From NCBI RefSeq assembly GCF_022811705.1, contig NZ_CP094528.1, positions 3,472,001 through 3,536,000 of the forward strand: a DNA stretch of 64,000 nt. The letters run 5' to 3'. Numbering within the stretch: the first letter of the stretch is position 1; each line of letters starts with the position of its first letter. Below the pieces are notes generated by a model that was not told the origin of the DNA, did not search any database, and saw only the letters and a program-made list of their open reading frames with translations. Source of the DNA: Agromyces larvae. GTDB lineage: Bacteria; Actinomycetota; Actinomycetes; Actinomycetales; Microbacteriaceae. This document shows positions 2,791-25,919 of this stretch, piece by piece. The position numbers and the translations under genes are program-made.

Positions 2791-2975
2791 GGTTCCCTGA
2801 GCGTGTCGAAGGGAGGTTCCCTGAGCCTGTCGAAGGGAGGTTCCCTGAGCGGGTCGAAGGGAGGTGGGCTCGCTTCGACAGGCTCAGCGCGCTTCGACAG
2901 GCTCAGCGCGCTTCGACAGGCTCAGCGCGCTTCGACAGGCTCAGCGAGCTCAGCGGGCTTCGACAGGCTCAGCGG
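2791..2975. repeat. TTCGACAGGCTCAG repeat array, two opposed blocks
   Basis: Three 24-bp units carrying TGAGCNNGTCGAAGGGA (2791-2862) are followed by five units carrying GCTTCGACAGGCTCAGCG (2872-2975, mostly 19-bp period). The two blocks are reverse complements of one another, so a transcript could fold into a long hairpin. The array lies between the ktrA-like stop (3003) and the ATPase start (2742), both on the minus strand, and could end transcription from the potassium operon. The same core recurs inside several coding regions of this window. Confidence 0.9.
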
Positions 2976-3002
2976 GCTTGGGTGGGCTCCGGAGCATCCG
3001 CC

Positions 3003-3671
3003 CTATTCGAGCGCAGCGAACTTCTCGATGTCGCTCTCGGTGCCGGTCACGATGATGAGGTCGTGGTTGGTGACCACGGTCTGCTCGGTGGCGTACGTGA
3101 AGGGCTTGCCGGGGCTCTTCACACCGACCACCGTGACGTGGTGCCGGGTGCGCACACCCGACTCGGTGAGGGTCTTGCCGCGGATCGGCTTCGGCGGGTA
3201 CATCTTCACGAGGGCGAAGTCGTCGTCGAACTCGATGAAGTCGAGCATCCGCCCGCTGACCAGGTGCGCGGTGCGTTCGCCGGCCTCGCGTTCGGGGTAG
3301 ATGACGTGGTTCGCGCCGATGCGCTCGAGGATCTTGCCGTGCGACGCCGAGATCGCCTTCGCCCAGATCTGCGGGATCTTCAGGTCGACGAGGTTCGCGG
3401 TGATGAGCACGGATGCCTCGACCGACGAGCCGACCGCGCACACCGCGATCGAGAAGTCCTGCGCGCCGATCTGCTTCAGCGCGTCGACCGACTTGGCGTC
3501 GGCGACGACCGCGTGCGTGACCCGGTCGGCCCACTTCTGCACGAGGTTCTCGTCGGTGTCGACGGCGAGCACCTCGCGGCCGAGGCGGTCGAGCTGACCG
3601 GCCGTGGCCGCGCCGAATCGCCCGAGTCCGATGACGAGCACCGGGGCGTCATGTCTGATGCGATCAACCAA
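3003..3671 (-). CDS. Potassium uptake regulatory subunit TrkA/KtrA family
   Basis: A 222-aa cytoplasmic gating subunit of a Trk/Ktr potassium channel. The N-terminal RCK domain has the Rossmann motif VIGLGRFGAATA (about residues 13-24) and the acidic end of strand two (AVDTDE) that contacts NAD(H) or ATP. The C-terminal half (RGKTLTESGVRTRHHVTVVG and the following strands) is the RCK_C ligand-binding domain. One RCK_N plus one RCK_C domain is the KtrA/KtrC arrangement. It overlaps the end of the membrane-subunit gene by 8 bp, so the two form an operon. The reading frame is intact and of usual length. Confidence 0.92.
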   Translation of the reverse strand: MVDRIRHDAPVLVIGLGRFGAATAGQLDRLGREVLAVDTDENLVQKWADRVTHAVVADAKSVDALKQIGAQDFSIAVCAVGSSVEASVLITANLVDLKIPQIWAKAISASHGKILERIGANHVIYPEREAGERTAHLVSGRMLDFIEFDDDFALVKMYPPKPIRGKTLTESGVRTRHHVTVVGVKSPGKPFTYATEQTVVTNHDLIIVTGTESDIEKFAALE

Positions 3672-5118
3672 CGATGGGCCTCTCTTCCGGTCGTTTGTAT
3701 AGCTGGCGACGCGTCGTCGCGGCGAGGGCGGCCGCGAGGGTGACCGTGCCGACGCGTCCGAAGAACATGGTGAACGCCATCACGTACACGCCCGCCGGCG
3801 GCAGGTCGGCGGTGAGCCCGGTCGAGAGTCCGCAGGTGGCGAACGCCGAGATGACGTCGAACAGCACGTAGTCGAACGGCTGCTTCGAGATCTGCAGGAT
3901 CGCGATGGACGCCGCCGCGACGATCGTCGAGCCCCAGAGCACGACCGCGACCGACAGTCGCAGCATGTCGCGGGGGATGCGCCGCCCGAACGCCTCCATG
4001 GAGGGCGTGCCGCGCGCCTCCGCGAAGGCGGCCAGGAACAGCACGGCGAGCGTCGTGACCTTGATGCCGCCCGCGGTCGACGCCGACCCGCCGCCGACGA
4101 ACATGAGCATGTCGGTGACGAGCTGACTCGACCCGTACAGGTCGTGCATGTTGACCGTCGCGAAGCCGCCCGAACGCGCCATCACCGACATGAACATCGA
4201 CTGGAAGATCGTGGGCCCGGCGTCGAGCCGGCCGTAGGTCGCCGGATTGCCGTGCTCGAGCAGGATGTACATGCCCGCACCCGCGATGAACAGGATGACG
4301 GTCGTGGTGAGCGTGAGCTTCACGTGCAGGCTCCAGCGGCGCGGATGCCGCCACCCGCGCGCGAGCGCGAAGATCACGGGGAAGCCGAGGCTGCCGAGGA
4401 ACACCCCGACCATCAGCCACGACTGCATCCAGTAGTCGTGCAGGAACGGCTCGAGCCCGCCCGGGTTCGGCATGAAGCCGGTGTTCGTGAACGCCATCGC
4501 CGAGTAGTAGAACGCGTACCAGATCGAGCGGAACGCGTCGTACCCCGCCGCGAACATGCTCGGGATCATCGCCACGGCGACCGTCGTCTCGATGACCAGG
4601 GCGCTGACCGCGACGGTGACGAGCAGCCCGCCCACCTCGCCGAGCCGTACGGCCTGCCGTTCGGACACCGGGCCCACGTGGATGCGCGACGGGTTGCTGT
4701 CGCTGGCCGCGAGCAGCTTCGCCCGCAGCCCGAGCCGCCGCGAGATGACCAGGCCGAGGGTGGTCGCGAGCGTCAGCACGCCGACGCCGCCGATGTTCAC
4801 GCCGATGAACACGAGCGCGTTGCCGAACGGCGACCAGTACGTCGCCATGTCGACCGTCGACAGGCCGGTGACGCAGATCACCGAGACGGCGGTGAAGAAC
4901 GCGTCGTGCAACGGCACGGTCGTGCCCACGCCGGAGCGCGCCACCGGCAGCGAGAACAGCAGCGTGAACAGCAGGATCAGGCCGGTGAACACGGTGATCG
5001 CGAACCGGGCGGGCGAGGTGCGTACGAAGGCGTCGACGGCGTCGCGCAGTCGCCCCAGCCGGCTCCGTTGGGGAGCCCGCAGTGCCGCAGATCCCCTCCG
5101 CCTCACGCGCTCCTCCAA
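3664..5118 (-). CDS. Potassium uptake membrane subunit TrkH/KtrB family
   Basis: A 484-aa membrane protein, the ion-conducting subunit partnered with the adjacent RCK protein. Four selectivity-filter loops can be seen: VTGLSTVDMAT, FTNTGFMP, ARSGGFATVN and ATCGLSTGL. Alternating hydrophobic helices fit the four M1-P-M2 repeats of the superfamily. The N-terminal 30 residues are basic and cytoplasmic. Its 3' end overlaps ktrA by 8 bp. It is transcribed away from an ArsR-type regulator that starts 63 bp upstream on the other strand, and that regulator may or may not control it. Confidence 0.92.
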   Translation of the reverse strand: MEERVRRRGSAALRAPQRSRLGRLRDAVDAFVRTSPARFAITVFTGLILLFTLLFSLPVARSGVGTTVPLHDAFFTAVSVICVTGLSTVDMATYWSPFGNALVFIGVNIGGVGVLTLATTLGLVISRRLGLRAKLLAASDSNPSRIHVGPVSERQAVRLGEVGGLLVTVAVSALVIETTVAVAMIPSMFAAGYDAFRSIWYAFYYSAMAFTNTGFMPNPGGLEPFLHDYWMQSWLMVGVFLGSLGFPVIFALARGWRHPRRWSLHVKLTLTTTVILFIAGAGMYILLEHGNPATYGRLDAGPTIFQSMFMSVMARSGGFATVNMHDLYGSSQLVTDMLMFVGGGSASTAGGIKVTTLAVLFLAAFAEARGTPSMEAFGRRIPRDMLRLSVAVVLWGSTIVAAASIAILQISKQPFDYVLFDVISAFATCGLSTGLTADLPPAGVYVMAFTMFFGRVGTVTLAAALAATTRRQLYKRPEERPIVG

Positions 5119-5168
5119 CCCGGTGTCCGCTGAACGCGTGTGTCATGGTACTCCCCGGTGCGAATGAC

Positions 5169-5174
5169 TACCCT
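5169..5174 (+). promoter_or_regulatory. -10 box TACCCT, leaderless start of the ArsR-family gene
   Basis: TACCCT ends 6 nt before the ATG at 5181, so the first base of the transcript is expected to be at or next to the start codon. No ribosome binding site is visible, which fits. Confidence 0.5.
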
Positions 5175-5180
5175 TGACCC

Positions 5181-5618
5181 ATGGCGGACATCTTCGACGT
5201 GGTGGCGGACTCGACCCGGCGCGACATCCTCGCCGTGCTGCTCGATCGCGAGACGGACGCTCCGCACTCGGGCGGCGAGATCAGCGTCTCCGAGATCGTC
5301 GCCGTGCTGGGCGTGAGCCAGCCGACCGTGTCGAAGCACCTCAAGGTGCTGCGCGAGTCGGGCCTGGTCGCCGTGCGCGAGGAGGGTCAGCACCGGTACT
5401 ACCGGCTCGACCGCGCGCCGCTGGAGGAGCTCGAGGACTGGCTGATCCCGTTCCTCGCGCAGGATGCGGCCGCGGACGCCGCGAAGCTCGCCTCCGCCGA
5501 CGAGCTCGACGGCGCGCTGAACGACGAGCAGCTCGCGTTCGCGTCGAAGCTGGGCAAGGCGTTCGCCGAGACGGCGCACTCGGTCAGCTCGGTGGTCGCG
5601 CCGCTGCGCAAGGGCTGA
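5181..5618 (+). CDS. ArsR-family winged-helix regulator
   Basis: A 145-aa DNA-binding protein. The N-terminal MADIFDVVADSTRRDILAVL and the recognition helix VSQPTVSKHLKVLRESGLV (about residues 46-64) followed by the wing VREEGQHRYYRL are typical of ArsR-type winged helices. No metal-binding cysteine cluster is present, so it is probably not a metal sensor of the classic type. The C-terminal 50 residues are acidic and helical. It stands alone on the plus strand, divergent from the potassium operon. The target is unknown. Confidence 0.85.
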   Translation: MADIFDVVADSTRRDILAVLLDRETDAPHSGGEISVSEIVAVLGVSQPTVSKHLKVLRESGLVAVREEGQHRYYRLDRAPLEELEDWLIPFLAQDAAADAAKLASADELDGALNDEQLAFASKLGKAFAETAHSVSSVVAPLRKG

Positions 5619-5656
5619 CGCGAGACCGCCGCGTCGTCGGCGCCCCCGCCGCGTCG

Positions 5657-6166
5657 TCAGGCGAGCCGTTTGATCATCTCGAGCTCGAGGCCGCCCGGTG
5701 CGAGCTCGTACTCGCGGCTGCGACCGGTGAACGAGAACCCGAGCTTCTCGTAGAACCGGATCGCCCGCGGGTTGTGCTCGTGCACCTCGAGCCGCAGGGT
5801 GTCGCCGTAGCCGCGCGCCCACGCCTCGATCGCCTCGAGCAGCGCGCGGGCCACTCCGGATGCCTCGCCGCGACGGTCGGCCGCGACGTACACGCCGACC
5901 AGCAGCGGCACGGATTCGCCCTGGGGGAGCCATCCGCCCATGTGCCCGACCCAGCGTTCGCCCTCGATCGCGACCACCGACGTCTGGCCGGGCGTCTCAC
6001 CGCGGCGGGCGCGCTGGCGCCACTCGGGCTCCTCGACCTGCAGCGCGTGATCGAGCGTCTCGGCGTAGGCGAGCGGCGTGTCGCGCAGCATCTCGAGCCG
6101 CAGCGCGCGCACCGCCTGCCAGTCCTCTTCGCGGGTGGTGCGGATGACGAGTTCGTCGCGGAGCAT
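5657..6166 (-). CDS. GNAT-family N-acetyltransferase
   Basis: A 169-aa enzyme of the acetyl-CoA-dependent GNAT fold. It begins with the usual first strand and helix (VIRTTREEDWQAVRALRLEM) and contains the acetyl-CoA binding motif A region VYVAADRRGEASGVARALLE, with the later strand and helix HEHNPRAIRFYEKLGFSFTG typical of motif B. The substrate cannot be told from the sequence. The ATG lies 6 nt after a TAGGTT box on the minus strand, which supports the chosen start. Confidence 0.88.
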   Translation of the reverse strand: MLRDELVIRTTREEDWQAVRALRLEMLRDTPLAYAETLDHALQVEEPEWRQRARRGETPGQTSVVAIEGERWVGHMGGWLPQGESVPLLVGVYVAADRRGEASGVARALLEAIEAWARGYGDTLRLEVHEHNPRAIRFYEKLGFSFTGRSREYELAPGGLELEMIKRLA

Positions 6167-6172
6167 CCTTCG

Positions 6173-6178
6173 AACCTA
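6173..6178 (-). promoter_or_regulatory. -10 box TAGGTT, leaderless start of the GNAT gene
   Basis: On the minus strand TAGGTT ends 6 nt before the ATG at 6166, the spacing expected when transcription starts at the start codon. Confidence 0.5.
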
Positions 6179-6255
6179 ACCTGCTTCGCAGCACGGTGTC
6201 GTTGCCGCGATTCGTCCCGAAACGGGTGCGCGACGGCACCGGTCGGCGGATCCGG

Positions 6256-6429: not shown

Positions 6430-6450
6430 GCTCGCGCCTGCTCCGCACTG

Positions 6451-6476
6451 AGCGCCGGATCCGTCCGGCGCTTTTT
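6451..6476 (+). terminator. Intrinsic terminator of the bS22 gene
   Basis: A perfect 9-bp stem (AGCGCCGGA / TCCGGCGCT) with a 4-nt loop is followed by a run of T residues, about 20 bp after the stop codon. It is the clearest rho-independent terminator in the window. Confidence 0.9.
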
Positions 6477-10064: not shown

Positions 10065-10856
10065 GTGCCGGCCGACCAGATCCATCTCGTGCGCCACGGC
10101 GAGGTGTTCAACCCGCAGGGCGTGCTCTACGGGCGACTCGAGGGGTACGGGCTGAGCGAGCTCGGCCACCGCATGGCGCAGGCCGCCGCCGACGACCTCC
10201 TCGCCCGCGAGCGGCCGGTCTCGGCGCTCGTGAGCTCGCCGCTGCAGCGCACTCGCCAATCGGCGGAGCCGATCGCCGCGGCATTCGGGCTCGAGACATC
10301 CATCGACGAGCGCCTCATCGAACCCGAGAACCGGTTCGAGGGCAAGCGCATGACCGGCCGCGACTCCGCGCTTCGCGACGTGCGCAACTGGGCGTACCTG
10401 ATCAACCCGTGGGAGCCGAGCTGGGGCGAACCGTTCCGCTCGATCGCGACGCGCATGCTGCACGCCATCGAGGACGCCTGGTCGAGCGTCGACGGCGGCG
10501 ACGTCGTGCTCGTCAGCCACCAGTTGCCGATCTGGATGGTGCACCGCCGGCTCGCCGGCAAGGGCCTCGCGCACGATCCGCGCCGGCGGCGTTGCGCGCT
10601 GTCGAGCATCACGACGCTCGAGCGGCGCCCTTCGACAGGCTCAGGGGGCCCTTCGACAGGCTCAGGGGGCCCTTCGACAGGCTCAGGGAGCCCTTCGACA
10701 GGCTCAGGGAGCCCTTCGACGGGCTCAGGGGGCCCTTCGACAGGCTCAGGGAGCCCTTCGACAGGCTCAGGGACCGGGCACCGTTTCGTCGAGGTCGGGT
10801 ACGTCGACCCCGCGGCCGGGCTGGGTGCGCACGCGACCGACGTGGGGGCCGTGTGA
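10065..10856 (+). CDS. Histidine phosphatase family protein with a repeat-encoded C-terminal insert
   Basis: A 263-aa protein of the phosphoglycerate-mutase-like superfamily. The catalytic motif LVRHGEV (His11), the [14 protein letters not shown] segment and the second histidine in [11 protein letters not shown] are present, so the active site is intact. After about residue 188 the protein contains seven copies of the heptapeptide PSTGSGG/S encoded by 21-bp DNA repeats, then resumes with [14 protein letters not shown]. The insert sits late, after the second catalytic histidine, where a flexible loop may be tolerated. The stop overlaps the tlpA-like start by one base (TGATG). The function in the operon is unknown. 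Confidence 0.9.
10628..10774 (+). repeat. In-frame array of seven 21-bp repeats inside the phosphatase gene
   Basis: Seven direct units of 21 bp, each CCCTTCGACRGGCTCAGGG plus two bases, with only a few substitutions. Because 21 is a multiple of three, the array codes for a regular Pro-Ser-Thr-Gly-Ser-Gly-Gly/Ser peptide. The near identity of the units points to recent expansion. Confidence 0.95.
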
Positions 10857-11476: not shown

Positions 11477-12228
11477 TGGGCCCCGGCGAGCTCGTCTTCA
11501 GTGGGCAGTTGCTGGTCGCGATCCCGATCGCGCTGGCCGCGGGGCTGATCTCGTTCCTCTCGCCGTGCGTGCTGCCGCTCGTGCCCGGATACCTCGGGTA
11601 CCTCGGCGGGTTCACGGATGCCTCGGCCGACGCCGCGGTCGAACGGCGCAACCGCCGGCGGCTGCTCGCGGGCGTCGCGCTGTTCGTCGCCGGGTTCACC
11701 GTCATCTTCCTCACCTACACGGTGCTCGCGGGGGTCGCCGGGGCGTGGCTGCGCACCTGGCAGGATCCGATCACCCGGGTGCTCGGCGTCGTGCTCATCG
11801 TCATGGGGCTGGTGTTCGTCGGGCAGTTCACGTTCCTGCAGCGCCAGTTCAAACCGTCCTGGCGGCCCGCGACGGGCCTCGCCGGTGCGCCGCTGCTCGG
11901 CGTGGTGTTCGGCCTCGGCTGGACGCCGTGCATCGGACCGGCGCTCGCCGCGGTGCTGAGCCTCAGCCTGAACAGCGAGTCCGCGTGGCGCGGCGCGGTG
12001 CTCGGGCTCGCGTACTGCATCGGGCTCGGCATCCCGTTCCTGCTCGTCGCGCTCGGCTTCGGCTGGGTGACGGGCTCGATGACGTTCCTCCGGCGGCACA
12101 TCCGCACCATCAACCTCATCGGCGGCGGGCTGCTGATCGTGATCGGACTGGTCATGGTCAGCGGGCTCTGGACGGCGTGGATGAACGAACTCCAGGGAGT
12201 GATGAGTGGCATCGACCTCGTCCTCTGA
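11476..12228 (+). CDS. ccdA: Cytochrome c biogenesis protein CcdA
   Basis: A 250-aa integral membrane protein that carries reducing equivalents across the membrane to the TlpA-like thioredoxin. Six hydrophobic segments are visible. The two functional cysteines lie in [19 protein letters not shown] and in [15 protein letters not shown], the standard CcdA motifs. The ATG overlaps the tlpA stop (TGATG) and the 3' end overlaps resB by 23 bp, so expression is tightly coupled. Confidence 0.94.
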
Positions 12229-14083
12229 GCGCACCGCTCACGACCCCCTGCGCCCCGCCGACCACGTCGACTCGGCGCCCGAACCCGACGGCGGGGCATC
12301 CGGGGTCGCGCAGCCGAAGCTCGGCCCCGTCGGCTGGCTGCGCTTCGCCTGGCGACAGCTCACCAGCATGCGCACCGCGCTGCTGCTCCTGCTGCTGCTC
12401 GCGATCGCGGCGGTGCCGGGATCGCTCGTGCCGCAGCGCTCGAGCGACCCGAACGGCGTCACGCAGTACTTCCAGGACAACCCCGACCTCGCGCCGGTGC
12501 TCGACTCGTTCCAGATGTTCGACGTGTACACGTCGGCCTGGTTCTCGGCCGTCTACCTGCTGCTGTTCGTCTCGCTCATCGGCTGCATCATCCCGCGCAC
12601 GAAGCACCACCTCGAGGCGCTGCGGGCCCGCCCGCCGCGCACCCCGGTTCGGCTGTCGCGGCTGGCCGGTTACACGGTGCGGTCGCTGCCCGAGCTCGCC
12701 GACGGAAGCGAAGGCGGGGCCGGCTCGCTTCGACAGGCTCAGCGAGCGGAGGTTCAGCGGGCGGAGAAAGAGCGAGCGGAGGTTCAGCGAGCGGAGGATG
12801 AGCGGGCGGAGGTTCAGCGGGCGGAGGATGAGCGGGCGGAGGATGAGCGGGCGGAGGCGTCGATCGCGGACGCCGCTGCGCGTCTGAAGCGGGCGGGCTA
12901 CCGGGTCGAACGGTACGACCTGCGCGGCGAGGCATCCGTCTCGGCCGAGCGCGGCTACCTGCGCGAGACCGGCAACCTGGTCTTCCACACCGCGCTGCTC
13001 GGCGTGCTCGCGACCGTCGCGATCGGCGGCGGGTTCGGGTTCTCCGGCCAGCGGGTCGTGGTCGAAGGGCAGTCGTTCGTGAACACGCTCGGCGCGTACG
13101 ACTCGTTCAACCCGGGCCGCTTCTTCGACGACGCGCAGCTGTCGCCCTACCGGCTCTCGCTCGAGGGGCTCGACGCGGTGTACGAGACGCAGAACGCCGA
13201 CGCGATCGGCCAGCCGATCGACTTCACGGCGCACGTGGTCGTCGAGGACGACGGCGGCAGCGCGGTCGACGAGACGGTGAAGGTGAACGAGCCGCTGCGC
13301 ACGCACGGCACCGACGTCTACCTGCTCGGCAACGGCTACGCGCCGACCGTCACGGTGCGCAACCCCGACGGCGAGATCGTGTTCACCGACTCGGTGCCGT
13401 TCCTGCCGCAGGACGCGAACCTCACCTCGATCGGCGTCATCAAGGTGACCGACGGGCTCGACGAGCAACTCGGTATGGTCGGGTTCTTCTATCCGACGCA
13501 GGACGTGCTCTCGACCGGCGCGTACGCCTCGACCTATCCCGACCTCGTGTACCCGGTGCTGACGCTGAACGTCTACGAGGGCGACCTCGGCATCGACGAC
13601 GGCACACCGACCTCGGTGTACGCGCTCGACCCGAGCGGCATGACCCAGCTCACCGGCGGCACCACGGGGGTCGACTCGATCGAGTTGAAGCCCGGCGAGA
13701 CCGCCGAGCTGCCCGGCGGCCGCGGCACGGTGACGCTCGAGGATGCCTCGCCGGCCGGCACCGCCGACGGCGACCTGTCGCACAGCGTCAAGCGGTTCGC
13801 GTCGTTCGACATCCACCACGACCCGACGCAGGGGTGGGTGCTCGTCTTCGCCATCCTCATCATCGCCGGCCTGCTGGTCTCGCTGTTCGTGCCGCGTCGC
13901 CGGATGTGGGTGAAGGCGGTGCGCCGCCGCGACGGCCGTGTGGTGCTCGAGTACGCGGGGCTGGCCCGCGGCGACGACCCCGGGCTCGACGACGCGGTGC
14001 GCGCCTTCGCGGATGCGCACGGCGGGCCGGCGGCCGACGACGCTGATGATCCCTCGACTCCCGGAAGTAAGGTGGACGCGTGA
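12206..14083 (+). CDS. resB: Cytochrome c biogenesis protein ResB, with a repetitive charged insert
   Basis: A 625-aa membrane protein that forms the haem-handling complex with CcsB/CcsA in system II. Three N-terminal membrane segments are visible (for example [19 protein letters not shown] and [17 protein letters not shown]), then a large extracytoplasmic domain and a last helix near [17 protein letters not shown]. Residues of about 178-218 are a charged repeat ([14 protein letters not shown]) coded by 15-bp DNA repeats that start with a TTCGACAGGCTCAG unit, just before the normal sequence resumes with [12 protein letters not shown]. The start is GTG at 12206, inside ccdA. The stop overlaps ccsB by 4 bp. 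Confidence 0.92.
12728..12860 (+). repeat. In-frame 15-bp repeat array inside resB
   Basis: One CTTCGACAGGCTCAG unit is followed by eight degenerate 15-bp units of the form AGCGRGCGGAGGWTS (12741-12860). The period is a multiple of three and the array codes for alternating Glu, Arg, Ala, Asp and Gln, likely an extended helix. It seems to have grown from the end of the first unit. Confidence 0.88.
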
Positions 14084-15141
14084 CCTTCACCCTCGATCAG
14101 CTCTCGATCCTCTGCGTGTACTCGGCGATCGCCGTCTACGCGATCGCGTTCGTCGCGTACGCGATCGACCTCGCCAAGCGCGGGGTCGCAGCGGGTGCGG
14201 CGGCCGAGCCGGTCGTGGTCACCGCAGGGGGCGGAGCGCCCGAGCGCAGCGAGGACGCCGCGACCCGAGACCGGGTCGCTGCGTCTCGAGACGCGTCGGA
14301 TTCCGTCGGGCGCTCCTCGACGAGCGGGGGCCGCTGGCGCAGCGCGCTCGACGCCGGCGCCTCGGTCGAGTACGGCCGCTCGCCCGCGCTGCGCGTCGCC
14401 GTCGCGATGACCGTGCTCGCGTGGGCACTGCACCTGACCGCCGACATCCTGCGCGGAATCGCCGCCGGGCGGGTGCCGTGGGCGAACATGTACGAGTTCG
14501 CGCTGACGGGCACGCTCGTGGTGACCACCGTCTACCTCGTGGTGCTGCTGTTCGCCAAGCAGGACCTCCGCTTCCTCGGCACGTTCGTCACGGGCCTCGT
14601 GCTCGTGCTGCTCGGCGTGGCCGCCGTGAACTTCTACGTCGAGGTCGCCCCGCTGCCGCCGGCGCTGCAGTCGGTGTGGCTCGTCATCCACGTGTTCGTC
14701 GCGACCACGTCGGTCGGGTTCTTCGCGCTCGGATTCGCGCTGTCGGTGCTGCAGCTCATGCAGGCCCGGCGCGAGGCGGTGGTGGCGACCGCGGATGCCG
14801 CGAAGAAGTCGTTCCTCGCGACCCTGCCGAACTCGGTGTCCCTCGAGAACCTCGCCTACCGGGTCAACATCATCGGGTTCATCCTGTGGACGTTCACCCT
14901 GATGGCCGGCGCGATCTGGGCCGAGAAGGCGTGGGGCCGCTACTGGGGCTGGGACACGAAGGAAGTCTGGACCTTCATCATCTGGGTGATCTACGCCGGC
15001 TACATCCACGCGCGGGCGACGCGCGGCTGGCGCGGCACGCGCTCGTCGTGGCTCGCGATCATCGGGTTCAGCGCGGTGCTGTTCAACTTCACGATCGTGA
15101 ACCTCTTCTTCAAGGGGCTGCACGCGTACAGCGGCCTGTAG
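14080..15141 (+). CDS. ccsB: Cytochrome c biogenesis protein CcsB/CcsA family
   Basis: A 353-aa polytopic membrane protein, the haem-exporting partner of ResB. The conserved tryptophan-rich haem-binding segment is WGRYWGWDTKEVWTF, and histidines that can ligate haem occur in ALHLTADILRG, VIHVFVATTSVGF and YIHARATRGW. Residues of about 52-79, between the first and second membrane segments, are coded by an 84-bp palindromic repeat element (RSEDAATRDRVAASRDASDS) and are probably a neutral insertion. The GTG start overlaps the resB stop by 4 bp (GTGA). It is the last gene of the operon. Confidence 0.93.
   Translation: MTFTLDQLSILCVYSAIAVYAIAFVAYAIDLAKRGVAAGAAAEPVVVTAGGGAPERSEDAATRDRVAASRDASDSVGRSSTSGGRWRSALDAGASVEYGRSPALRVAVAMTVLAWALHLTADILRGIAAGRVPWANMYEFALTGTLVVTTVYLVVLLFAKQDLRFLGTFVTGLVLVLLGVAAVNFYVEVAPLPPALQSVWLVIHVFVATTSVGFFALGFALSVLQLMQARREAVVATADAAKKSFLATLPNSVSLENLAYRVNIIGFILWTFTLMAGAIWAEKAWGRYWGWDTKEVWTFIIWVIYAGYIHARATRGWRGTRSSWLAIIGFSAVLFNFTIVNLFFKGLHAYSGL
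14233..14316. repeat. Palindromic repeat element (family 2) in frame inside ccsB
   Basis: The arms GGAGCGCCCGA (14233-14243) and TCGGGCGCTCC (14306-14316) are perfect reverse complements, and the interior holds further short palindromes such as GTCTCGAGAC. The flanks resemble the intergenic element at 22846-22896. The stretch is read through in frame and codes for a hydrophilic loop. Confidence 0.75.
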
Positions 15142-16543: not shown

Positions 16544-19500
16544 ATGACGCGGAGCGCGAGGGTGCGCAGATGGTTGGCGACGATCGTGGCGGGTGCCCTC
16601 GGGGCATCCCTCATCGGCGCCGCGGTGATCGCGGTGCCGGGCGCGGCCGCAGCCGACGAGGCGCGCACGTTCGCCCTGGTCGGCAGCCTCCAGTCGGAGC
16701 TCGGATGCCCCGGCGACTGGCAGCCCGAATGCGCCGCGACCGAACTGCTCCCGACCGACACCGCCGGGGTGTACGCGGCCGAGTTCACCATTCCGGCCGG
16801 CGACTGGGAGTACAAGGTCGCGGTGAACGACGCGTGGGATGAGGCGTACGGCCTGAACGGCGGCGGCGACAACATCCCGCTGACCGTGGCGGGCGACACC
16901 GAGATCCGCGTGGTCTTCGACGACACGCTGAAGAAGGTCGGTCTCGAGGCGACCGACGCGACGCTGCGCGGTGCGTACGACGAGGCATCCGATGCATCCC
17001 TGGTCGACGCCCCGGTGCGCCAGGCCGGCAGCGACGAGGTCTTCTACTTCGTGATGACCGACCGGTTCGACAACGGCGACCCGTCGAACGACGAGGGCGG
17101 CCTCACGGGCGACGCGCTCACCACCGGGTACGACCCGACGCACAAGGGCTTCTACCAGGGCGGCGACCTGGCCGGCCTGCGCTCGCAGCTCGACTACATC
17201 GAGGGCCTCGGCACCACCGCGATCTGGCTCACCCCGAGCTTCAAGAACCAGCCCGTGCAGGGCGAGGGCGCGAACGCGAGCGCCGGGTACCACGGCTACT
17301 GGGTCACCGACTTCACGCAGATCGACCCGCACCTCGGCACGAACGACGAGCTGCGCGACCTGATCGCCGACGCGCACGACCGCGGCATCAAGGTCTACTT
17401 CGACATCATCACGAACCACACCGCCGACGTCATCGACTACGCCGAGCAGCAGTACGCCTACATCGACCAGGCGACGAGCCCGTACCTCGACGCCGACGGC
17501 AACCCGATCGACCTCGCCGACTACGCCGACGCGTCGCAGCCCTTCCCGGCGCTCGACGCGGCGACCAGCTTCCCGTACACGCCGGTGCTCGATGCGGGTG
17601 AGGAGACGCTGAAGGTCCCGGCCTGGCTGAACGACCCGACGCTGTACCACAACCGCGGTGACTCGACGTGGGAGGGGGAGTCGGTCACGTACGGCGACTT
17701 CGTCGGCCTCGACGACCTGATGACCGAGCACCCCACCGTGGTGAACGGCTTCGTCGACGTGTACGAAGACTGGATCGACCTCGGCATCGACGGGTTCCGC
17801 ATCGACACCGCCAAGCACGTGAACTTCGAGTTCTGGCAGCAGTGGTCGGCCCAGGTGCTCGACTACGCGCGCACGGTCGCCGGCAAGCCCGACTTCTTCA
17901 TGTTCGGCGAGGTCTACGACGCCGACCCCGTGAAGCTCAGCCCGTACGTGCGCGACACCGACATGAACTCGGTGCTCGACTTCACCTTCCAGTCGCAGGC
18001 GGTGAGCTTCGCGGCCGGCAACTCGGCGAAGAACCTGCAGTCGCTGTTCGCGGGCGACGACTACTACACGACCCCGCACTCGTCGGCGACGGCGCTGCCG
18101 ACCTTCCTCGGCAACCACGACATGGGCCGCGTGGGGTACTTCCTGCAGAACACGGATGCCCCGCTCGCGCGCGACGAACTCGCGCACGACCTGCTGTTCC
18201 TCACCCGCGGCCAGCCGGTCGTCTACTACGGCGACGAGCAGGGCTTCGCGGGCACGGGCGGCGACCAGAGCGCCCGGCAGACGATGTTCGCCTCCCAGGT
18301 GGACGAGTACACCGGTCAGTCGCTCGTCACCGGTGAGCCGTTCGGCACCGGCGCGCACCAGTCGACGGATGCTCCGCTCTACGAGCACATCGCCGAACTC
18401 TCGGCGCTGCGCCAGGCGCACCCGGCGCTCGCGACGGGCGCGCAGGTCGAGCGGTACGTCGACAGCGGCGCGGGCGTGTATGCGTTCAGCCGCGTCGACC
18501 GCGCCGACAAGGTCGAGTACCTCGTCGCGGTGAACAACGCGACCGAGACCCGCACGGTCGAGGTGCCGACGCTCACCGACGCGGGCGTGTTCTCGCCGCT
18601 CTACGACTCCTCGCTCCCTGAGCCTGTCGAAGGGGAGGCATCCGTCACGGCCGACGCCGACGGCGTGGCATCCGTCACCGTGCCCGCCCTGGGCGCGGTG
18701 GTCTACACGGCCGACCGACCGGTCACCGCGCCCGACGCGGCGCTCGCGATCTCGGTCGCGACGCCGGCCGCCGGCGCCGGCGTGCGGGGCGTCACGCCGG
18801 TCGCGGCCGACGTCGACCCCGGCACCTGGCAGGAGACCAGCTTCGCCTGGCGCATCGCGGGCGACGAGTCGGACGCCGCGTGGCACGCCCTCGGCACCGC
18901 CGAGGACACCTCGCCCCGCGTCTTCCACGACACCGCGGGCCTCGCGACGGGCACGCTCGTCGAGTACCGCGCGATCTCGACGGATGCCGCGGGCCACCGC
19001 TCGGCCGCGTCCACCTACGCGTCGGTCGGCAACGCGGTGAACCTCGTCGAGGTCGACGAGCCCGAACAGCCGATCGAACTGGTCACCGTGCCGGGCAACC
19101 ACAACGCCGCGATGGGCTGCGCGGGCGACTGGGCACCCGGCTGCGAGGCGGCGAAGCTGACGCTGCGCGCCGACGGCGTCTACGCCGGCACGTTCGACCT
19201 GCCCGCGGGCGACTACGAGTACAAGGTCGCGATCAACGGCTCGTGGGACGTGAACTACGGCCAGGGCGGCGTACCCGGCGGAGCGAACATCGCCTACCAC
19301 CACGACGGCGGGCCGATCACGTTCTACTGGAACCCGGTGACGCACCTGGCGACCTCCACCGCCCAGGGGCCGATCCTCACCGTGCCCGGCTCGTTCCAGA
19401 GCGAGATCGGATGCCCCGGCGACTGGGCGCCCGACTGCCTCGCGTCGATGCTCTTCGACTCCGACGGCGACGGCGTGTACGAGTTCACGACCACGTCGAT

Positions 19501-22500
19501 CCCGGCGGGCGCGTACGAGGCGAAGGTCGCGCACGGCATGAGCTGGGACGAGAACTACGGCGTCGGCGGGGTGCGCGACGGCGCGAACTCCACGTTCACG
19601 ACGAAGGACGGCGAGCAGGTGACGTTCCGGTACACGCTCGCCACGCATGTGCTCGAGATCGAGGTGGCGAACCCGCCGCTGCCCGGCGCCGGCGAGGCGC
19701 GCGCGCAGTGGATCGACGCCGACACGATCGCCTGGCCGGCCGCGCTGCTCGGCGGCGCCTCGGCCGACGGGCTCTCGTGGACGCTCGAGCACTCGGCCGA
19801 CGCAGGGCTCGCGATCGGCGACGAGGGCGCGGTGACCGGGGCGACCGGCGACGGCGTGCCGCTGACGCTCGATGCGGGCGGACTCACCGAGGCGCAGCTC
19901 GCGCGGTTCCCGCAGCTGGGCGGCGGGGCGTACCTGGCGCTGAAGGCCGACGGGCTCGACCGCGCGACGGTCGCGGGCCTGCTGACCGAGCAGCTCGTCG
20001 TCGCGCAGCGCTCGGGCCCTGAGCCTGTCGAAGGGGCGACCGCTTCGACAGGCTCAGCGAGCCTCACCGCGTTCACCGGCGTGCAGGTGCCCGGCGTGCT
20101 CGACGACCTCTACGCGGAGGCCGTGGCATCCGTCGACCTCGGGGTCAGCGGGCGCGGCGACGACACGGTCGCGACCGTGTGGGCGCCGACCGCGCAATCG
20201 GTGGTGCTCGAGCGGTGGGACGCCGGCGCGACCGGCGACCCGGCGCTCGTCGAGGCATCCTTCGACCCGTCGACCGGCACCTGGGCGACCGCGCCGGGTG
20301 CGCTCGACGCAGGCGACGAGTACCGCTGGCGGCTCGAGGTCTACCAGCCTTCGACCGGGGCGGTCGAGACGAACTCGGTCACCGACCCGTACTCGACCGC
20401 GCTCACCGTGAACTCGACGCGCACCGTCGTCGTCGACCTCGACGACCCGTCGATCTCGCCCGAGCTGTGGACCGACACGCCCACGCCGGTCGTCGAGCAC
20501 GCGGTCGATCGCGCGATCTACGAACTGCACGTGCGCGACTTCTCGATCACCGACGAGACCGTGCCCGAGGCCGAACGCGGCACCTACCGCGCGTTCACGC
20601 GCGACTCGGCCGGCACCGCGCAGCTGCGCGAGCTCGCCGCCGCCGGCATCAACACGGTGCACCTGCTGCCGACGTTCGACATCGCCACGATCGAGGAGCG
20701 GCGCGACGCGCAGGCGACCGCCGACTGCGACCTCGCGTCGTTCGGGCCGGCGTCGACCGAGCAGCAGGCGTGCCTCGCGTCCATCCGCGACCTCGACGGC
20801 TTCAACTGGGGCTACGACCCGTACCACTACCAGGCGCCCGAGGGCTCGTACGCGGTCGACCCCGACGGCGGCGCGCGCGTCGGCGAGTTCCGCGAGATGG
20901 TCGGCGCGCTGCACAGCATGGGCCTGCAGGTCGTGCTCGACGAGGTGTACAACCACACCTCGGCGTCGGGACAGTCCGAGACCAGCGTGCTCGACCGGGT
21001 CGTGCCGGGGTACTACCAGCGGCTGAACGCGGCCGGCGCCGTCGAGACCTCGACGTGCTGCCAGAACGTCGCGACCGAGCACTCGGTGGCGCAGCAGCTG
21101 ATGGTCGACTCGGTGGTGCTCTGGGCGAAGGAGTACAAGGTCGACGGGTTCCGCTTCGACCTCATGGGGCACCACTCGAAGGAGAACCTGCTCGCGGTGC
21201 GGGCCGCGCTCGACGAGCTGACGCTCGAGGAGGACGGCGTCGACGGTTCGGCCGTGTACCTGTACGGCGAAGGCTGGAACTTCGGCGAGGTGGCCGACAA
21301 CGCACTGTTCGAACAGGCCACCCAGGGCCAGCTCGGCGGCACCGGCATCGGCACCTTCAACGACCGGCTGCGCGACGGCGTGCACGGCGGCAGCCCGGTC
21401 GACGGGTCGTCGACCTACGATCAGGGCTTCGGCACCGGGCTCGCGGGCGACCCGAACGGGCACCCCGCCCGCGAGGGCACGCGCACGCTCGGCCAGCAGA
21501 CCGACCTGGTGAAGCTCGGCCTGGCCGGCAACCTGCGGGCGTTCGAGTTCGAAGCGTCCGACGGCACGGTGAAGCGCGGCGACGAGGTCGACTACAACGG
21601 GCAGCCCGCCGGCTACGCCGACCAGCCCGACGAGGTCATCACCTACGTCGATGCGCACGACAACGAGACGCTGTTCGACCACGGCATCTGGAAGCTGCCG
21701 ACCGGTACGTCGATGGCCGACCGCGTGCGCATGAACACGCTGTCGCTCGCGACCGTCGCGTTCGCGCAGACCCCGTCGTTCTGGCACGCCGGCACCGAGC
21801 TGCTGCGCTCGAAGTCGCTCGATCGCAACAGCTACAACTCGGGCGACTGGTTCAACCGCATCGACTGGACGGGCCAGGAGTCGACCTTCGGGTCGGGTCT
21901 GCCGCCCGAGGCCGACAACGGGGCGAAGTGGGCCGACATGGCGGCGCTGCTCGCCGACCCCGCGCTGAAGCCGACCGCGGCGGACATCGCGGCAGCCGAG
22001 GCATCCGCCCTCGACCTGCTGCGGGTGCGATCCAGCGTCGACCTGCTGCAGCTCGGCTCGGCCGAGCTCATCGAGCAGAAGGTGACGTTCCCGAACAGCG
22101 GGCCGGATGCCACGGCCGGCCTCATCGCGATGCTCATCGACGACCGCCTCGGTGCGGACGCCGACGCCGACCTCGACGGCGCCCTCGTCGTGTTCAACTC
22201 GTCGCCCGAGCCGATCACCGAGGCGATCGACGGGCTCGCCGGCCGCGAGTTCGCGCTCAACGCGGTGCAGGCCGGGGGCGCCGACGCGGTGACCGCGTCG
22301 ACGTCGTGGGACGCGGCGACCGGCACGGTGACCATCCCGGCGCGGACCGCGGCGGTGCTGGTCGAGGCACAGGCGGAGGAGCCGGGCGAGCCTGGCGAAC
22401 CGGGCGAGCCTGGGGAGCCCGGGCAGCCGGGTGAGCCGGGGCAGCCCGGGGAGCCGGAGGCGACCCCGACGCTGCACCTCTCGGCCGGCACGGCGCGCCC

Positions 22501-22837
22501 GGGCGACGTGATCGGCATCACCGGAACCGGCTTCGCGCCGGGCGAGGCGGTCCAGGTGTGGCTGCACTCGACGCCGCGACTGCTCGTCGGCGCGACCGCC
22601 GATGCGCAGGGCGCGATCTCGGTGCAGGCGACGATTCCGCTCGACACCGCGACCGGTGACCACGTGATCCGGGTGCTCGGTGTCGACTCGGGGCTCGAGG
22701 CATCCGCCGCCCTGGTCGTGCTCGGGCCGCTCGGCCTCACCGGGACCCAGACGTGGCTCGCCCTGCTGCTCGCCCTGGCACTGCTCGCCGCCGGCGCGAT
22801 CGTGCTCGGGCCGCGGCTGGCGCGGCGGGTTCGCTGA
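16544..22837 (+). CDS. pulA: Secreted alpha-amylase/pullulanase fusion (amylopullulanase)
   Basis: A 2097-aa extracellular starch-degrading enzyme with two GH13 catalytic modules. Order: signal peptide (to about residue 36); an X25-type module (ELGCPGDW); an alpha-amylase module with Asp421 ([10 protein letters not shown]), Glu456 (FGEVYD) and Asp526 (LGNHDMGR); two more X25 modules ([24 protein letters not shown]); a starch-binding/CBM48-like part; a pullulanase module with [10 protein letters not shown], Asp1539 ([11 protein letters not shown]), Glu1576 ([10 protein letters not shown]) and Asp1706 (DAHDNET); a Gly-Glu-Pro linker; an Ig-like domain; and a C-terminal membrane helix with basic tail. 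It should cut both alpha-1,4 and alpha-1,6 bonds at the cell surface. Two TTCGACAGGCTCAG-type insertions lie near residues 690 and 1160. Confidence 0.93.
18613..18634. repeat. Single repeat unit inside the pullulanase gene
   Basis: CTCCCTGAGCCTGTCGAAGG is one reverse-oriented unit of the TTCGACAGGCTCAG family, read in frame as SLPEPVEG at the end of the amylase module. Confidence 0.85.
20016..20063. repeat. Inverted pair of repeat units inside the pullulanase gene
   Basis: CTGAGCCTGTCGAAG (20019-20033) and CTTCGACAGGCTCAG (20043-20057) are perfect 15-bp arms around a 9-nt loop. They are read in frame as [15 protein letters not shown] in a linker before the pullulanase half. Confidence 0.92.
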
Positions 22838-22845
22838 TCACCCCT

Positions 22846-22896
22846 GGTCGAGGAGCGCTCGGACGCGTCGCCGCTTCGCGTCGGCGCTCCTCGACC
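22846..22896. terminator. Palindromic element (family 2), probable bidirectional terminator
   Basis: Perfect 13-bp arms GGTCGAGGAGCGC and GCGCTCCTCGACC enclose 25 bp that contain further inverted repeats (GACGCG/CGCGTC). It lies between the convergent pullulanase and menC genes and has no T-run. Similar sequences occur at 61919-62009 and inside ccsB, so it is a dispersed repeat that could also stop transcription. Confidence 0.65.
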
Positions 22897-22909
22897 GGTG
22901 GAGGGCGAG

Positions 22910-23926
22910 TCAGGCGCGCTCGCCGAGCACCGCGTGGCAGCGCTCGAGCCGTGCGAGCCACCACGCGGTGCGGTCGGCGTCGGCCGCCCACCGGTCGAGC
23001 AGGGCGGATGACACGTCGACCCGCCGCACGGGCACGGCTCCGTCGACCGGCGAGAGCGGAGCATCCGTGACATCCGCGGCGAGCAGCGACGCGGTGCCGA
23101 GCCCGCAGTCGAACTCGAGGTCGCCGATCGCGGCCGCGAGATGCGCGCCCATCGCGAGGCCGACGCTCGTGTCGAGCGCGCTCGACACGTTCACCGGCAG
23201 CCCCGCCTCGGCGATGATCGCGAGCGCCCGGCGGATGCCGCCGAGCGGCTGCGCTTTGATCACCAGCAGGTCGGCCGCCCCGGCCGACGCGACCGCGAGG
23301 GGATCCGCGGCACGCCGCACGCTCTCGTCGGCGGCGATCGGGATGCCCATGTAGCGGGTGCGTTCGCGGATCTCGGCGAGTTCGGGCACCGTCGCGCACG
23401 GCTGCTCGACGTACTCGAGGTCGAAGGCCGCCAGCGCGTGGATCGCGTGCTCCGCCTCGTCGACGTTCCATCCGCCGTTCGCGTCGAGCCGCACCCGGCC
23501 CTCGGGCCCGAGCGTCTCGCGCACCGCGCGCACGCGGGCGACGTCCTGCGCGAGCGTCTGATCGGAACCGGCCACCTTCACCTTCGCGGTGCGGCACCCC
23601 GGGAACCGGGCCAGCACGGCGGCGACGCTGTCGGGGTCGACGGCGGGCACGGTCGCGTTCACGCGGATCGTGGTGCGCCGCGCGGGCGGCGATGCGTTCC
23701 AGCCGAAATCGACGGATGCCTCGAGCCACGTCGCGGCCTCGTCGTCGCCGTACTCGGCGAACGGGCTGAACTCGGTCCACCCCTCGGGCCCCTCGAACAC
23801 CACCGCCTCGCGGACGTCGATGCCGCGGAACCGGGTCACGAGCGGCAGTGCGACGACGCGGGCGGTGGCGAGTATCTCGGCGAGCGGGGGGAGGGCGGCG
23901 GGCGGCGGTGCGATGGCGGGGCTCAC
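22910..23926 (-). CDS. menC: o-Succinylbenzoate synthase
   Basis: A 338-aa enolase-superfamily enzyme that dehydrates SHCHC to o-succinylbenzoate in menaquinone synthesis. Visible catalytic features are the lysine motif TAKVKVAG, metal-ligand motifs RLDANGGW, EYVEQPC and IAADESV, and the second lysine in LLVIKAQPLGG. The length and the short N-terminal capping domain fit the actinobacterial MenC type. It starts with GTG and is on the opposite strand from menB, with a lipoprotein gene between them, so it has its own promoter. The reading frame is intact. Confidence 0.92.
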   Translation of the reverse strand: MSPAIAPPPAALPPLAEILATARVVALPLVTRFRGIDVREAVVFEGPEGWTEFSPFAEYGDDEAATWLEASVDFGWNASPPARRTTIRVNATVPAVDPDSVAAVLARFPGCRTAKVKVAGSDQTLAQDVARVRAVRETLGPEGRVRLDANGGWNVDEAEHAIHALAAFDLEYVEQPCATVPELAEIRERTRYMGIPIAADESVRRAADPLAVASAGAADLLVIKAQPLGGIRRALAIIAEAGLPVNVSSALDTSVGLAMGAHLAAAIGDLEFDCGLGTASLLAADVTDAPLSPVDGAVPVRRVDVSSALLDRWAADADRTAWWLARLERCHAVLGERA

Positions 23927-23979
23927 CCCGTCATCGTGGCACGCGCCGCCCGCGCCGTCACGGCCCGGTCACGGCTCGG

Positions 23980-24633
23980 TCACGGCCCATAGCTGTCGAC
24001 GGGCGCGAAGATGCGGGTCACGCCCTGGGCCGGCGCGTCGATGTAGACGGCGACGGTGAGGGTGCGCGGCGGATCCTGCGCCTCGCCGACGACCACGTCG
24101 GGCCCGTGCGCGACGAGGAAGTCGTCGAACTCGGCGATGGTCGCCGGATACGTGGTGCGAACCGCGTTCGTCGACGACCCGATCGCGATGCCTTCGGCGG
24201 TGCGCACCTCGACGTCGCCGGTCGCCGGGCCCGACGCGAGCACGTCGAACGCGAGATCGGAGGTCTCGTGCGCCGTGCCGAGCCGGAACCCGCCCCAGCC
24301 GTACGTCGTGTACGGCGGGCGCTCGGCGTGGCCCGGGTCATCGCCGACGACGGGTTCCTCGCCGAGCACGGCGGCGAGTCGTTCCACCACCGCGTCGAGC
24401 GGATCGTCGTACGCCGCTTCGAGCAGCGCGGTGTCGTCGTCGGCGATGACCGTGAAGCCGTCGGCGGCGACGATGATCGTCGCCGCGTCGGACTCGGGTG
24501 GCCGCACACTCGACTGCGTGTCCGGCGCTTGCGACGGCAGGGACACGGCGAAGGGTGCCGCGCAGCCCGCCAGGGCACTGGTGATGCCGGCGGCGACCAG
24601 AAGGGTGGTCGCCCGGCGGATGTGTCGGATCAT
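23980..24633 (-). CDS. Putative lipoprotein of unknown function
   Basis: A 217-aa exported protein. The N-terminus MIRHIRRATTLLVAAG leads to the lipobox ALAGC, so it should be lipid-anchored. The mature part is acidic, with strands such as IIVAADGFTVIADDD and a region TTYGWGGFRLGTA, and repeats no motif I recognise. The ATG at 24633 is chosen because the signal peptide begins there; an upstream in-frame GTG at 24744 would put 37 non-conserved residues in front. A TTACGT box lies 7 nt before this ATG. Confidence 0.75.
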   Translation of the reverse strand: MIRHIRRATTLLVAAGITSALAGCAAPFAVSLPSQAPDTQSSVRPPESDAATIIVAADGFTVIADDDTALLEAAYDDPLDAVVERLAAVLGEEPVVGDDPGHAERPPYTTYGWGGFRLGTAHETSDLAFDVLASGPATGDVEVRTAEGIAIGSSTNAVRTTYPATIAEFDDFLVAHGPDVVVGEAQDPPRTLTVAVYIDAPAQGVTRIFAPVDSYGP

Positions 24634-24735
24634 GCGTGGGACGTAACCAGCCCGCCGGAGGAGCCTGCTCAGGGTCAGCCCTGATCCCGGATCCCCCGAC
24701 CGGTGGAAACTCACCGTCCCCCTGCGGAGGCGGAC

Positions 24736-24754
24736 GGGGACCACGAGGGTCCCC
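24736..24754. other. Short perfect hairpin upstream of menB
   Basis: GGGGACC and GGTCCCC are perfect 7-bp arms around a 5-nt loop, in the divergent region between the lipoprotein gene and menB. If menB is leaderless the hairpin lies upstream of its promoter and is not in the transcript. The role is unknown. Confidence 0.35.
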
Positions 24755-24778
24755 GGGCGGGGGCGTGAGCGCGGAAAC

Positions 24779-24784
24779 TAGGCT
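24779..24784 (+). promoter_or_regulatory. -10 box TAGGCT, leaderless start of menB
   Basis: TAGGCT ends 7 nt before the ATG at 24792, with only GGAGGG between, which could also be a weak ribosome binding site. Confidence 0.5.
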
Positions 24785-24791
24785 GGAGGGC

Positions 24792-25919
24792 ATGGCAGAC
24801 CAGGTCTCCGAGCTGTTCGATCCGGCCGAGTGGGTGGATGCCCCGGCCGGCGCCGGGTTCACCGACATCACGTACCACCACTCGACCGACGGGCGCATCG
24901 CGCGGGTCGCGTTCGACCGGCCCGAGGTGCGCAACGCGTTCCGCCCGCACACGGTCGACGAGCTGTACCGCGCGCTCGAGGACGCGCGCACGAACCCCCG
25001 CATCGGCGTGGTGCTGCTCACCGGCAACGGGCCCAGCGCGAAGGACGGCGGCTGGGCGTTCTGCTCGGGCGGCGACCAGCGCATCCGCGGGCGCGACGGG
25101 TACAAGTACGAAGCCTCGGTCCCCGAGCCCGTCGAAGGGAGCGCAGCCGTCGCTTCGACGGGCTCAGCGAGCTCAGGGGCCGTCGCTTCGACGGGCTCAG
25201 CGAGCTCAGGGGCCGTCGCTTCGACGGGCTCGGCGAGCTCAGGGGCCGTCGCTTCGACGGGCTCAGCGAGCTCAGGGGCCGTCGCTTCGACGGGCTCAGC
25301 GAGCTCAGGGGCCGTCGCTTCGACGGGCTCGGCGAGCTCAGGGGCCGTCGCGGACTCGGCGGGGCTCGGCCGCCTGCACATCCTCGAGGTGCAGCGGCTC
25401 ATCCGCTTCATGCCCAAGGTCGTGATCGCGGTCGTGCCCGGCTGGGCGGCCGGCGGCGGCCATTCGCTGCACGTGGTCTGCGACCTCACGATCGCCAGCC
25501 GCGAGCACGGCCGCTTCAAGCAGACCGATGCCGATGTCGGCTCGTTCGACGCGGGCTACGGCAGCGCCTACTTCGCCCGGCAGATCGGCCAGAAGTTCGC
25601 GCGCGAGGTGTTCTTCCTCGCCGAGGAGTACTCGGCCGACCGCGCGTACGAGATGGGGGCCGTGAACCGGGTGGTGCCGCACGCCGACCTCGAGCGCGAG
25701 GCGATCGCGATGGCCCGAACGATCCTCACCAAGTCGCCGACGGCGATCCGCATGCTGAAGTTCGCGTTCAACGCGGTCGACGACGGCATGGTCGGCCAGC
25801 AGGTGTTCGCGGGCGAGGCGACCCGTCTCGCGTACGGCACCGACGAGGCGGTCGAGGGCCGTGACGCGTTCCTCGAGAAGCGCGACCCCGACTGGGGCCC
25901 CTACCCGTGGCACTTCTAG
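24792..25919 (+). CDS. menB: 1,4-Dihydroxy-2-naphthoyl-CoA synthase with a repeat insertion in the A-loop
   Basis: A 375-aa crotonase-fold enzyme that closes the second ring of menaquinone. Typical motifs are FDRPEVRNAFRPHTVDEL, GWAFCSGGDQRIRGRDGYKY, VPGWAAGGGHSLHVVCDLT, DADVGSFDAGYGSAYFAR and the C-terminal DPDWGPYPWHF. Family members are about 300 aa; here about 77 extra residues (about 109-185), mostly six copies of VASTGSASSGA, lie between GYKYEAS and LGRLHILEVQRLIRFMPK. In known structures this is the disordered A-loop that closes over the active site. The motif residues on both sides are intact, so the enzyme may still work. Without the insertion the protein would be about 298 aa. Confidence 0.93.
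   Translation: MADQVSELFDPAEWVDAPAGAGFTDITYHHSTDGRIARVAFDRPEVRNAFRPHTVDELYRALEDARTNPRIGVVLLTGNGPSAKDGGWAFCSGGDQRIRGRDGYKYEASVPEPVEGSAAVASTGSASSGAVASTGSASSGAVASTGSASSGAVASTGSASSGAVASTGSASSGAVASTGSASSGAVADSAGLGRLHILEVQRLIRFMPKVVIAVVPGWAAGGGHSLHVVCDLTIASREHGRFKQTDADVGSFDAGYGSAYFARQIGQKFAREVFFLAEEYSADRAYEMGAVNRVVPHADLEREAIAMARTILTKSPTAIRMLKFAFNAVDDGMVGQQVFAGEATRLAYGTDEAVEGRDAFLEKRDPDWGPYPWHF
25118..25343 (+). repeat. In-frame array of six 33-bp repeats inside menB, preceded by an inverted unit
   Basis: A reverse-oriented unit (CCCGAGCCCGTCGAAGGGA, about 25121-25140) is followed by six direct 33-bp units (25146-25343), each with GCTTCGACGGGCTC then GGCGAGCTCAGGG or AGCGAGCTCAGGG. Units 3 and 6 share the same A-to-G change, so the array is a duplicated 99-bp block of three units. 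All units keep the reading frame. Confidence 0.95.

Follow-up and report, generated by a model that had tools for sequence, protein, structure and literature searches.

A REP-like hairpin family and its in-frame tandem arrays in Agromyces larvae

A short sequence core recurs as single units, inverted pairs and tandem arrays, both between and within genes, in a stretch of 64,000 nucleotides of the Agromyces larvae genome (contig NZ_CP094528.1, positions 3,472,001 to 3,536,000; hereafter the window, in whose coordinates positions are given). We consider it probable, at roughly 0.77, that this core marks a selfish hairpin family resembling repetitive extragenic palindromic (REP) sequences, which burst in this Agromyces lineage, was amplified locally in tandem and was filtered for reading frame inside genes. 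The stem of the hairpin covaries, its copy number is patchy across the genus, a congener lacks these arrays at the sites compared, the array periods are local, and events within genes keep the frame. A first-pass annotation of the window had proposed a REP-like family that expands inside genes with periods that are multiples of three; the repeats it saw are real, and the rule of three holds in genes, but not as a rule of expansion.

A hairpin with a covarying stem

The 4,005,264-base, single-contig genome of A. larvae (G000) contains 282 exact copies of TTCGACRGGCTCAG and 369 of TTCGACRRGCTCAG, and the reversed-pattern controls give 0 for both; this is the genome-wide count that the first-pass annotation had proposed as a check. 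In the window, 28 matches to TTCGACRGGCTCAG with at most 2 mismatches stand against a shuffle mean of 1.57 (largest 6 in 100 shuffles), and the placement of tandem arrays by Tandem Repeats Finder (TRF) agrees, confirming that one core is shared by the arrays reported there. Two isolated matches with 2 mismatches each, at 34480 and 56127, look like chance. Units were analyzed further in a sample that joins the window to 37 stretches lying up to 2.99 Mb, 445,136 bases in all, which covers 229 of the 369 exact TTCGACRRGCTCAG copies and represents the genome beyond 2.99 Mb by the window alone. The sample holds 338 units in 77 clusters, or 69 clusters once 8 inexact singles are removed; gene calls in it come from a codon-usage script rather than from standard annotation, and L-numbers below label individual stretches examined.

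The bases flanking the core pair with each other. At the variable stem position, formed by the second base before the core and the first base after it, 69 of 77 clusters are paired where 37.2 are expected, a value reached by 0 of 5000 shuffles (one unit per cluster, the 8 inexact singles included), and the pairs are of both kinds, C-G in 42 clusters and G-C in 27. The same holds for loci from other phyla, where stem positions 2, 3 and 4 are paired in 109, 104 and 73 of 116 listed loci against 48.8, 42.3 and 45.0 expected, counting one unit per locus in a scan whose pattern fixed the cores and left the stems free. TTCGACRGGCTCAG is thus the loop side of a REP-like palindrome with a covarying stem, and the unit has the properties by which REPs are defined in PMC3733652. 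In DNA folds the open loop of the unit is 11 nt long. The two inverted pairs tested fold better than shuffles as DNA (z -6.35 and -5.69), and the first inverted neighbors are oriented -+ in 43 clusters and +- in 10, so that the common dimer is an inverted pair with its tags outward, as in REPINs. An Rfam search of the first 30 kb of the window returned a single sub-threshold microRNA match and nothing else.

Probable local amplification under a frame filter

The arrays were compared with the matching places in G023, the nearest congener by the protein encoded at window 14080-15141 (86% identity; putatively ccsB-like, by gene position). The two genomes are collinear: 26 of 28 anchors, picked with a preference for small clusters, could be placed, all in opposite orientation and in circular order, and 2 remained unplaced. 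Stretches with a G023 counterpart include 58 of the 77 clusters, of which 49 were aligned and 9 were not alignable; length changes were taken between gap-free borders and agree with individually inspected alignments. The arrays seen in G000 are absent from the G023 stretches examined.

All 29 sites inside a G023 gene differ in net length by a multiple of three, compared with 6 of the 16 that lie between genes or at a gene edge (Fisher p = 2.5e-6); a further four sites with inexact singles were set aside from this test, and they too all differ by multiples of three. Because the sites were classified by the genes of G023, a broken frame in G000 could have been detected. All but one of the 29 fall inside a called G000 gene, and the 29th precedes a called start, so these are insertions that stay in frame and leave the gene open, in the manner of Rickettsia palindromic elements (RPE). 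Array periods, taken from at least two equal spacings, tell the same story, with multiples of three in 13 of 13 arrays in genes and 7 of 22 outside (p = 6e-5), although this second test relies on G000's own gene calls, by which a frame-breaking array could have been placed outside a gene. The fraction outside is close to the one third expected. Together the two comparisons indicate that expansion ignores the frame and that selection filters its products: the multiples of three reflect the survival of frame-keeping events, not the way in which the family expands. The first-pass observation that coding arrays keep the frame stands. Of the checks it proposed, coding DNA does show an excess of periods divisible by three, and no other period occurs in the 13 in-gene arrays sampled.

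Frame usage agrees with such a filter. Counted by cluster and frame (47 combinations in 35 clusters), exact units in genes read STGS in 21, EPVE in 17, RQAQ in 7 and LSLS in 2, while the open frame FDRL and the frame containing TGA are each used 0 times. The largest in-frame addition by tandem amplification is +201 bp, or 67 residues.

The arrays appear to have been built where they stand. In 41 array arms there are 20 distinct periods, and the part of the unit outside the core is 86% alike within an array but 60% alike between arrays of equal period (medians). In resB and at L001 15340 the flank rather than the core is repeated. One seed has been seen, at L031 5366, where G000 has three units and G023 has one; a second unit-like match in G023 (L204 2838) was considered as a seed and rejected, as it lies in conserved gcvP sequence away from a cluster. 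Away from clusters, tandem repeats number 48 in 189,181 bases of G000 and 59 in 184,851 bases of G023, or 2.54 versus 3.19 per 10 kb. Since tandem repeats elsewhere in G000 are not raised, the hairpin itself is the likely trigger, rather than a slippage-prone host.

Clusters are inside genes in 35 of 69 cases (30 genes), and the other 34 lie outside genes or across a gene end; given that 88.4% of the DNA is coding, clusters are strongly enriched in the space outside genes (p = 1.5e-14). The median distance of these outside clusters is 13 bp to the flanking 3' ends (n = 41) and 43 bp to the 5' ends (n = 27), with 12 of 34 between convergent genes and 5 of 34 between divergent ones.

Copy number, spread and origin

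Across 60 Agromyces genomes, G000 included, copies range from 0 to 369, with at least one match in 40 genomes and none in 20. The highest counts are in G000 (369), G032 (261; A. mediolanus JCM 3346, the first 8,000 bases of one contig being those of NZ_BMRJ01000002.1), G033 (184), G042 (55), G047 (42), G014 (32) and G010 (21), and the remaining genomes have at most 16 each; G023 has 2, and a genome with one or two copies does not stand out from the reversed control, which gives 0 to 2 per strand. Among 296 Actinomycetota, more than 20 copies occur only in G000 and G345 (39).

A scan of genome contigs for the inverted-pair pattern found at least 116 loci across several phyla. By record title the listed loci comprise 80 from Pseudomonadota, 18 from Actinomycetota, 15 from Bacteroidota, 2 from Chloroflexota and 1 unassigned, a tally in which some loci share a genome and titles of metagenome-assembled genomes may be wrong. 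All four phyla have this core, on stems that vary and with an outer tag that depends on the lineage: the tag is CCGTTC in 102 of 193 proteobacterial units, TGTCA in 21 of 31 Bacteroidota units and CGGTCC in several actinobacterial units. The inverted pair is also carried by 25 viral contigs (L246-L270). Eight of these (L248, L249, L260, L261, L265, L268, L269 and L270) have a pair length of 51 bp in common, and three of the eight (L249, L261 and L269) have the outer tag CCGTAG.

The mechanism we propose for Agromyces starts from a family whose hallmark would be an unchanging loop side, TTCGACNNGCTCAG, carried on a covarying stem of variable sequence, with an unpaired tag on the outside. Copies may move as folded single-stranded DNA, and single units and inverted pairs, tags outward as in REPINs, would settle chiefly a short way past stop codons or within protein segments that tolerate changes in length. 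At each landing site the unit would then be amplified in tandem together with some local flank, perhaps by hairpin-provoked slippage or template switching, and because local flank is amplified with the unit the periods would differ between loci. Purifying selection in genes would retain events that preserve the frame, bring no stops and add a hydrophilic linker.

That the arrays are ordinary minisatellites of a slippage-prone genome, with the shared core incidental, would account for their local character and their many periods. It is nevertheless highly improbable, since tandem repeats away from the motif are no commoner than in G023, single units and pairs of the core are scattered over unrelated sites, and the stems covary. 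A functional host signal, such as a bidirectional terminator, a gyrase site or an uptake sequence under selection on DNA or RNA, would fit the strong folding of inverted pairs and the way in which clusters outside genes hug 3' ends and favor convergent over divergent genes, but half of the clusters are inside genes, and a general host function is argued against by the 20 of 60 Agromyces genomes that have no copy and by the mere 2 copies in G023. We regard this explanation as unlikely, though clusters may have a secondary use as terminators. DNA uptake sequences are short dispersed motifs, often in inverted pairs at gene ends, and typically have a uniformly high copy number across relatives; the range of 0 to 369 within one genus differs from this pattern, and they are rejected on that ground.

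The hairpins, the inverted dimers with outward tags, the position behind genes and the patchy copy number are all like GTAG REPs (PMC3733652), as would be expected if this were a classical REP/REPIN family moved by a resident Y1 transposase (RAYT, for REP-associated tyrosine transposase; REPIN/RAYT systems and REP recognition are treated in PMC3116915 and PMC8266576). Against this, the Y1 model PF01797 has no match in any of the 60 Agromyces genomes, those with high copy number included, and matches in 5 of 14 control genomes. Among 39 motif-bearing genomes from the cross-phylum scan, A. mediolanus included, 19 have Y1 and 20 have none, and the actinobacterial ones have it in 0 of 10. None of the Y1 genes read is flanked by the canonical motif, as a RAYT (Y1_Tnp) is by its repeat in REPtron/REPIN systems: the motif stands beside 0 of the 30 Y1 loci read (of 56 matches; flanks up to 1.5 kb). 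The GTAG tag is present in 2 of 69 G000 clusters, and in 0 of 69 actinobacterial, 1 of 31 Bacteroidota and 5 of 193 proteobacterial units, the last including Sphingopyxis L057 and L063; it also occurs in three viral contigs. A classical family is therefore very unlikely here, and of the first-pass proposal the REP-like nature of the core, now seen in several phyla, survives, whereas membership in the classical REPs fails on the transposase. Loss of the hairpin nuclease SbcCD was also considered as a cause and rejected, as the SbcD model (TIGR00619) does not separate high-copy from low-copy genomes: only G006 and G040 of the 60 Agromyces genomes exceed its cut-off, and a further 51 give weak matches. 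In controls the model matches 13 of 14 genomes, and with only 8 of these over cut-off it may miss true SbcD.

Several observations weigh against a selfish family that moves and then amplifies. No mobilizing enzyme was found in these searches, and one Y1 locus, in Pedobacter (L184 537), does adjoin a related core with a 3-base middle, which favors the classical alternative. The two single units tested as DNA folds are no better than shuffles by energy. Exact single units in genes show a net change of 3 to 27 bp in 7 of 8 cases (the eighth, in resB, is 78 bp including the flank array), single-unit sites often show replaced host sequence rather than a clean insertion, and no target duplication was seen at those aligned; with such small changes and replaced sequence, the unit of insertion stays undefined. 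Finally, in 300-kb samples, clusters are inside genes in only 1 of 9 cases in G032 and 1 of 6 in G033, a smaller share than in G000 (Fisher p = 0.0095), so heavy in-gene amplification is so far confined to G000.

With respect to known systems, the Agromyces family shares with the GTAG REPs and REPINs described in PMC3733652 the short hairpins, covarying stems, unpaired outer tag, head-to-head dimers, tandem clusters that include flanking DNA, position behind genes and some intragenic units; it differs in that no Y1 was found in the genus, the loop side is constant and half of the clusters are in genes. The CGTC REPs of the same source are likewise palindromic, form head-to-head dimers, occur in several phyla and in genes, and lack a dedicated transposase, but their loops are 4-5 nt long, their stems begin with A-T and they seldom cluster, whereas the present family has an 11-nt loop, another core and common clusters. 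Nor does a CGTC tag mark the present family: it was found in 2 of 69 actinobacterial, 2 of 31 Bacteroidota and 13 of 193 proteobacterial units; GACG lies near 18 of 69 G000 clusters, where it may be the next unit's own TTCGACGG. Rickettsia RPE are also palindromes in frame in likely functional proteins, and end in the CGTC tag (PMC3733652), whereas the Agromyces family adds up to 67 residues by tandem amplification.

The first-pass annotation was right that core enzymes carry in-frame inserts, which it thought an unusual source of protein variation, but this kind of event is already known from RPE and from the intragenic REPs reported in PMC3733652, among them clusters that encode 43 to 82 residues and units within DnaE2 genes. 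What is new is a loop-defined family without Y1 that is heavily amplified inside genes. The sequence family and its literal 14-mers were not found in the literature searched, whose figures and supplements are unsearchable, and an earlier listing in PMC3733652 is possible because its consensus sequences stand in figures. More tentatively, and less likely than not, the family could belong to a third cross-phylum REP-like superfamily, recognized by its loop instead of a GTAG or CGTC tag, moved by something other than Y1, perhaps by host enzymes of replication or repair that work on single strands in folded form, and generating hydrophilic in-frame linkers in core enzymes, DnaE2 included, of some lineages. 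PMC3733652 raises, for CGTC REPs, the open question of how REP families spread when they have no transposase of their own. Collinear Agromyces genomes with 369 and 2 copies form a natural pair, and with the two further high-copy congeners they reduce the search for the mover to a defined comparison of gene content.

Host genes and the window

Domains were scanned in 14 of the 30 cluster-bearing genes: those of the histidine phosphatase, ResB, pullulanase and MenB in the window; DnaE2 (error-prone DNA polymerase), MetH and HrpA, with two clusters each; and GcvP, PurL, PepN, an acyl-CoA dehydrogenase, an MMPL protein, a P-type ATPase and a GNAT protein. Of their 18 exact clusters, 4 lie inside a listed Pfam match (ResB, one pullulanase site, one DnaE2 site in PHP, and PurL) and 14 lie outside the best listed stretches, where domain-internal breaks, as in MenB and probably GcvP, are indistinguishable from linkers. 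The arrays in genes amount to a readable selection experiment on protein linkers, and show segments of MenB, PurL, GcvP, MetH, PepN, HrpA and DnaE2 that tolerate inserts. The dnaE2 gene at L008 11133-14816 carries in-frame clusters at two separate places, which add 54 and 183 bp relative to G023 and echo the REP-tagged DnaE2 genes of other bacteria described in PMC3733652.

All four unit-bearing genes of the window read through, as the first-pass annotation had noted, and their identities hold. The histidine phosphatase gene (10065..10856, + strand) has a His_Phos_1 match, behind which sits an array of 7 x 21 bp (10627..10773, +) that reads PSTGSG and adds 147 bp relative to G023. In resB (12206..14083, +; ResB domain) a unit at 12729-12742 leads a 15/30-bp array up to 12857 (12729..12857, +; +78 bp); that a unit leads the array had been recognized, but the repeated sequence (12735-12857) is made from the unit's 3' flank, not from its core. 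The pullulanase gene (16586..22837, +; Alpha-amylase, Pullulanase_N2 and Pullul_strch_C) contains a lone unit on the - strand that reads EPVE (18618..18631; +9 bp) and an inverted pair (20019..20057, units at 20019 and 20044; +21 bp) with a 15-bp inner stem. The menB gene, for 1,4-dihydroxy-2-naphthoyl-CoA synthase (24792..25919, +; 375 aa, with domain and structure matches), has a cluster at 25123..25351 that adds 189 bp. Its 33-bp units were described correctly, as 6.2 x 33 bp at 25146-25351 reading AVASTGSASSG, with the correction that one unit of the cluster (25123) is on the other, - strand. Against the MenB chain 1q51_A, residues 109-183 map between its residues 119 and 123, a site that we take to be the loop disordered in MenB structures.

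Between genes, a cluster at 2791..2978 consists of three - units followed by five + units (last step 28), placed by TRF as 24-bp-period units at 2791-2865 (-) and 19-bp-period units at 2871-2950 (+), the last unit ending at 2972; it has no counterpart at the same place in G023. At another intergenic site, where G000 has an inverted pair (L030 5559), the matching G023 stretch (L211) has a different palindromic repeat, GGTCTCGATACGCG...CTACTCGACC, whose core GGTCTCGATACG is rare (2 in 445 kb of G000 and 2 in 205 kb of G023), and with a different palindrome at the same spot two repeat families may share landing places. In the samples GGATGC/GCATCC is over-represented relative to a Markov estimate in both genomes, with 983 versus 721.8 in G000 and 448 versus 326.8 in G023. 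Elsewhere in the window, at 44275-44603, a 163-bp unit is present in two copies with 92% matches.

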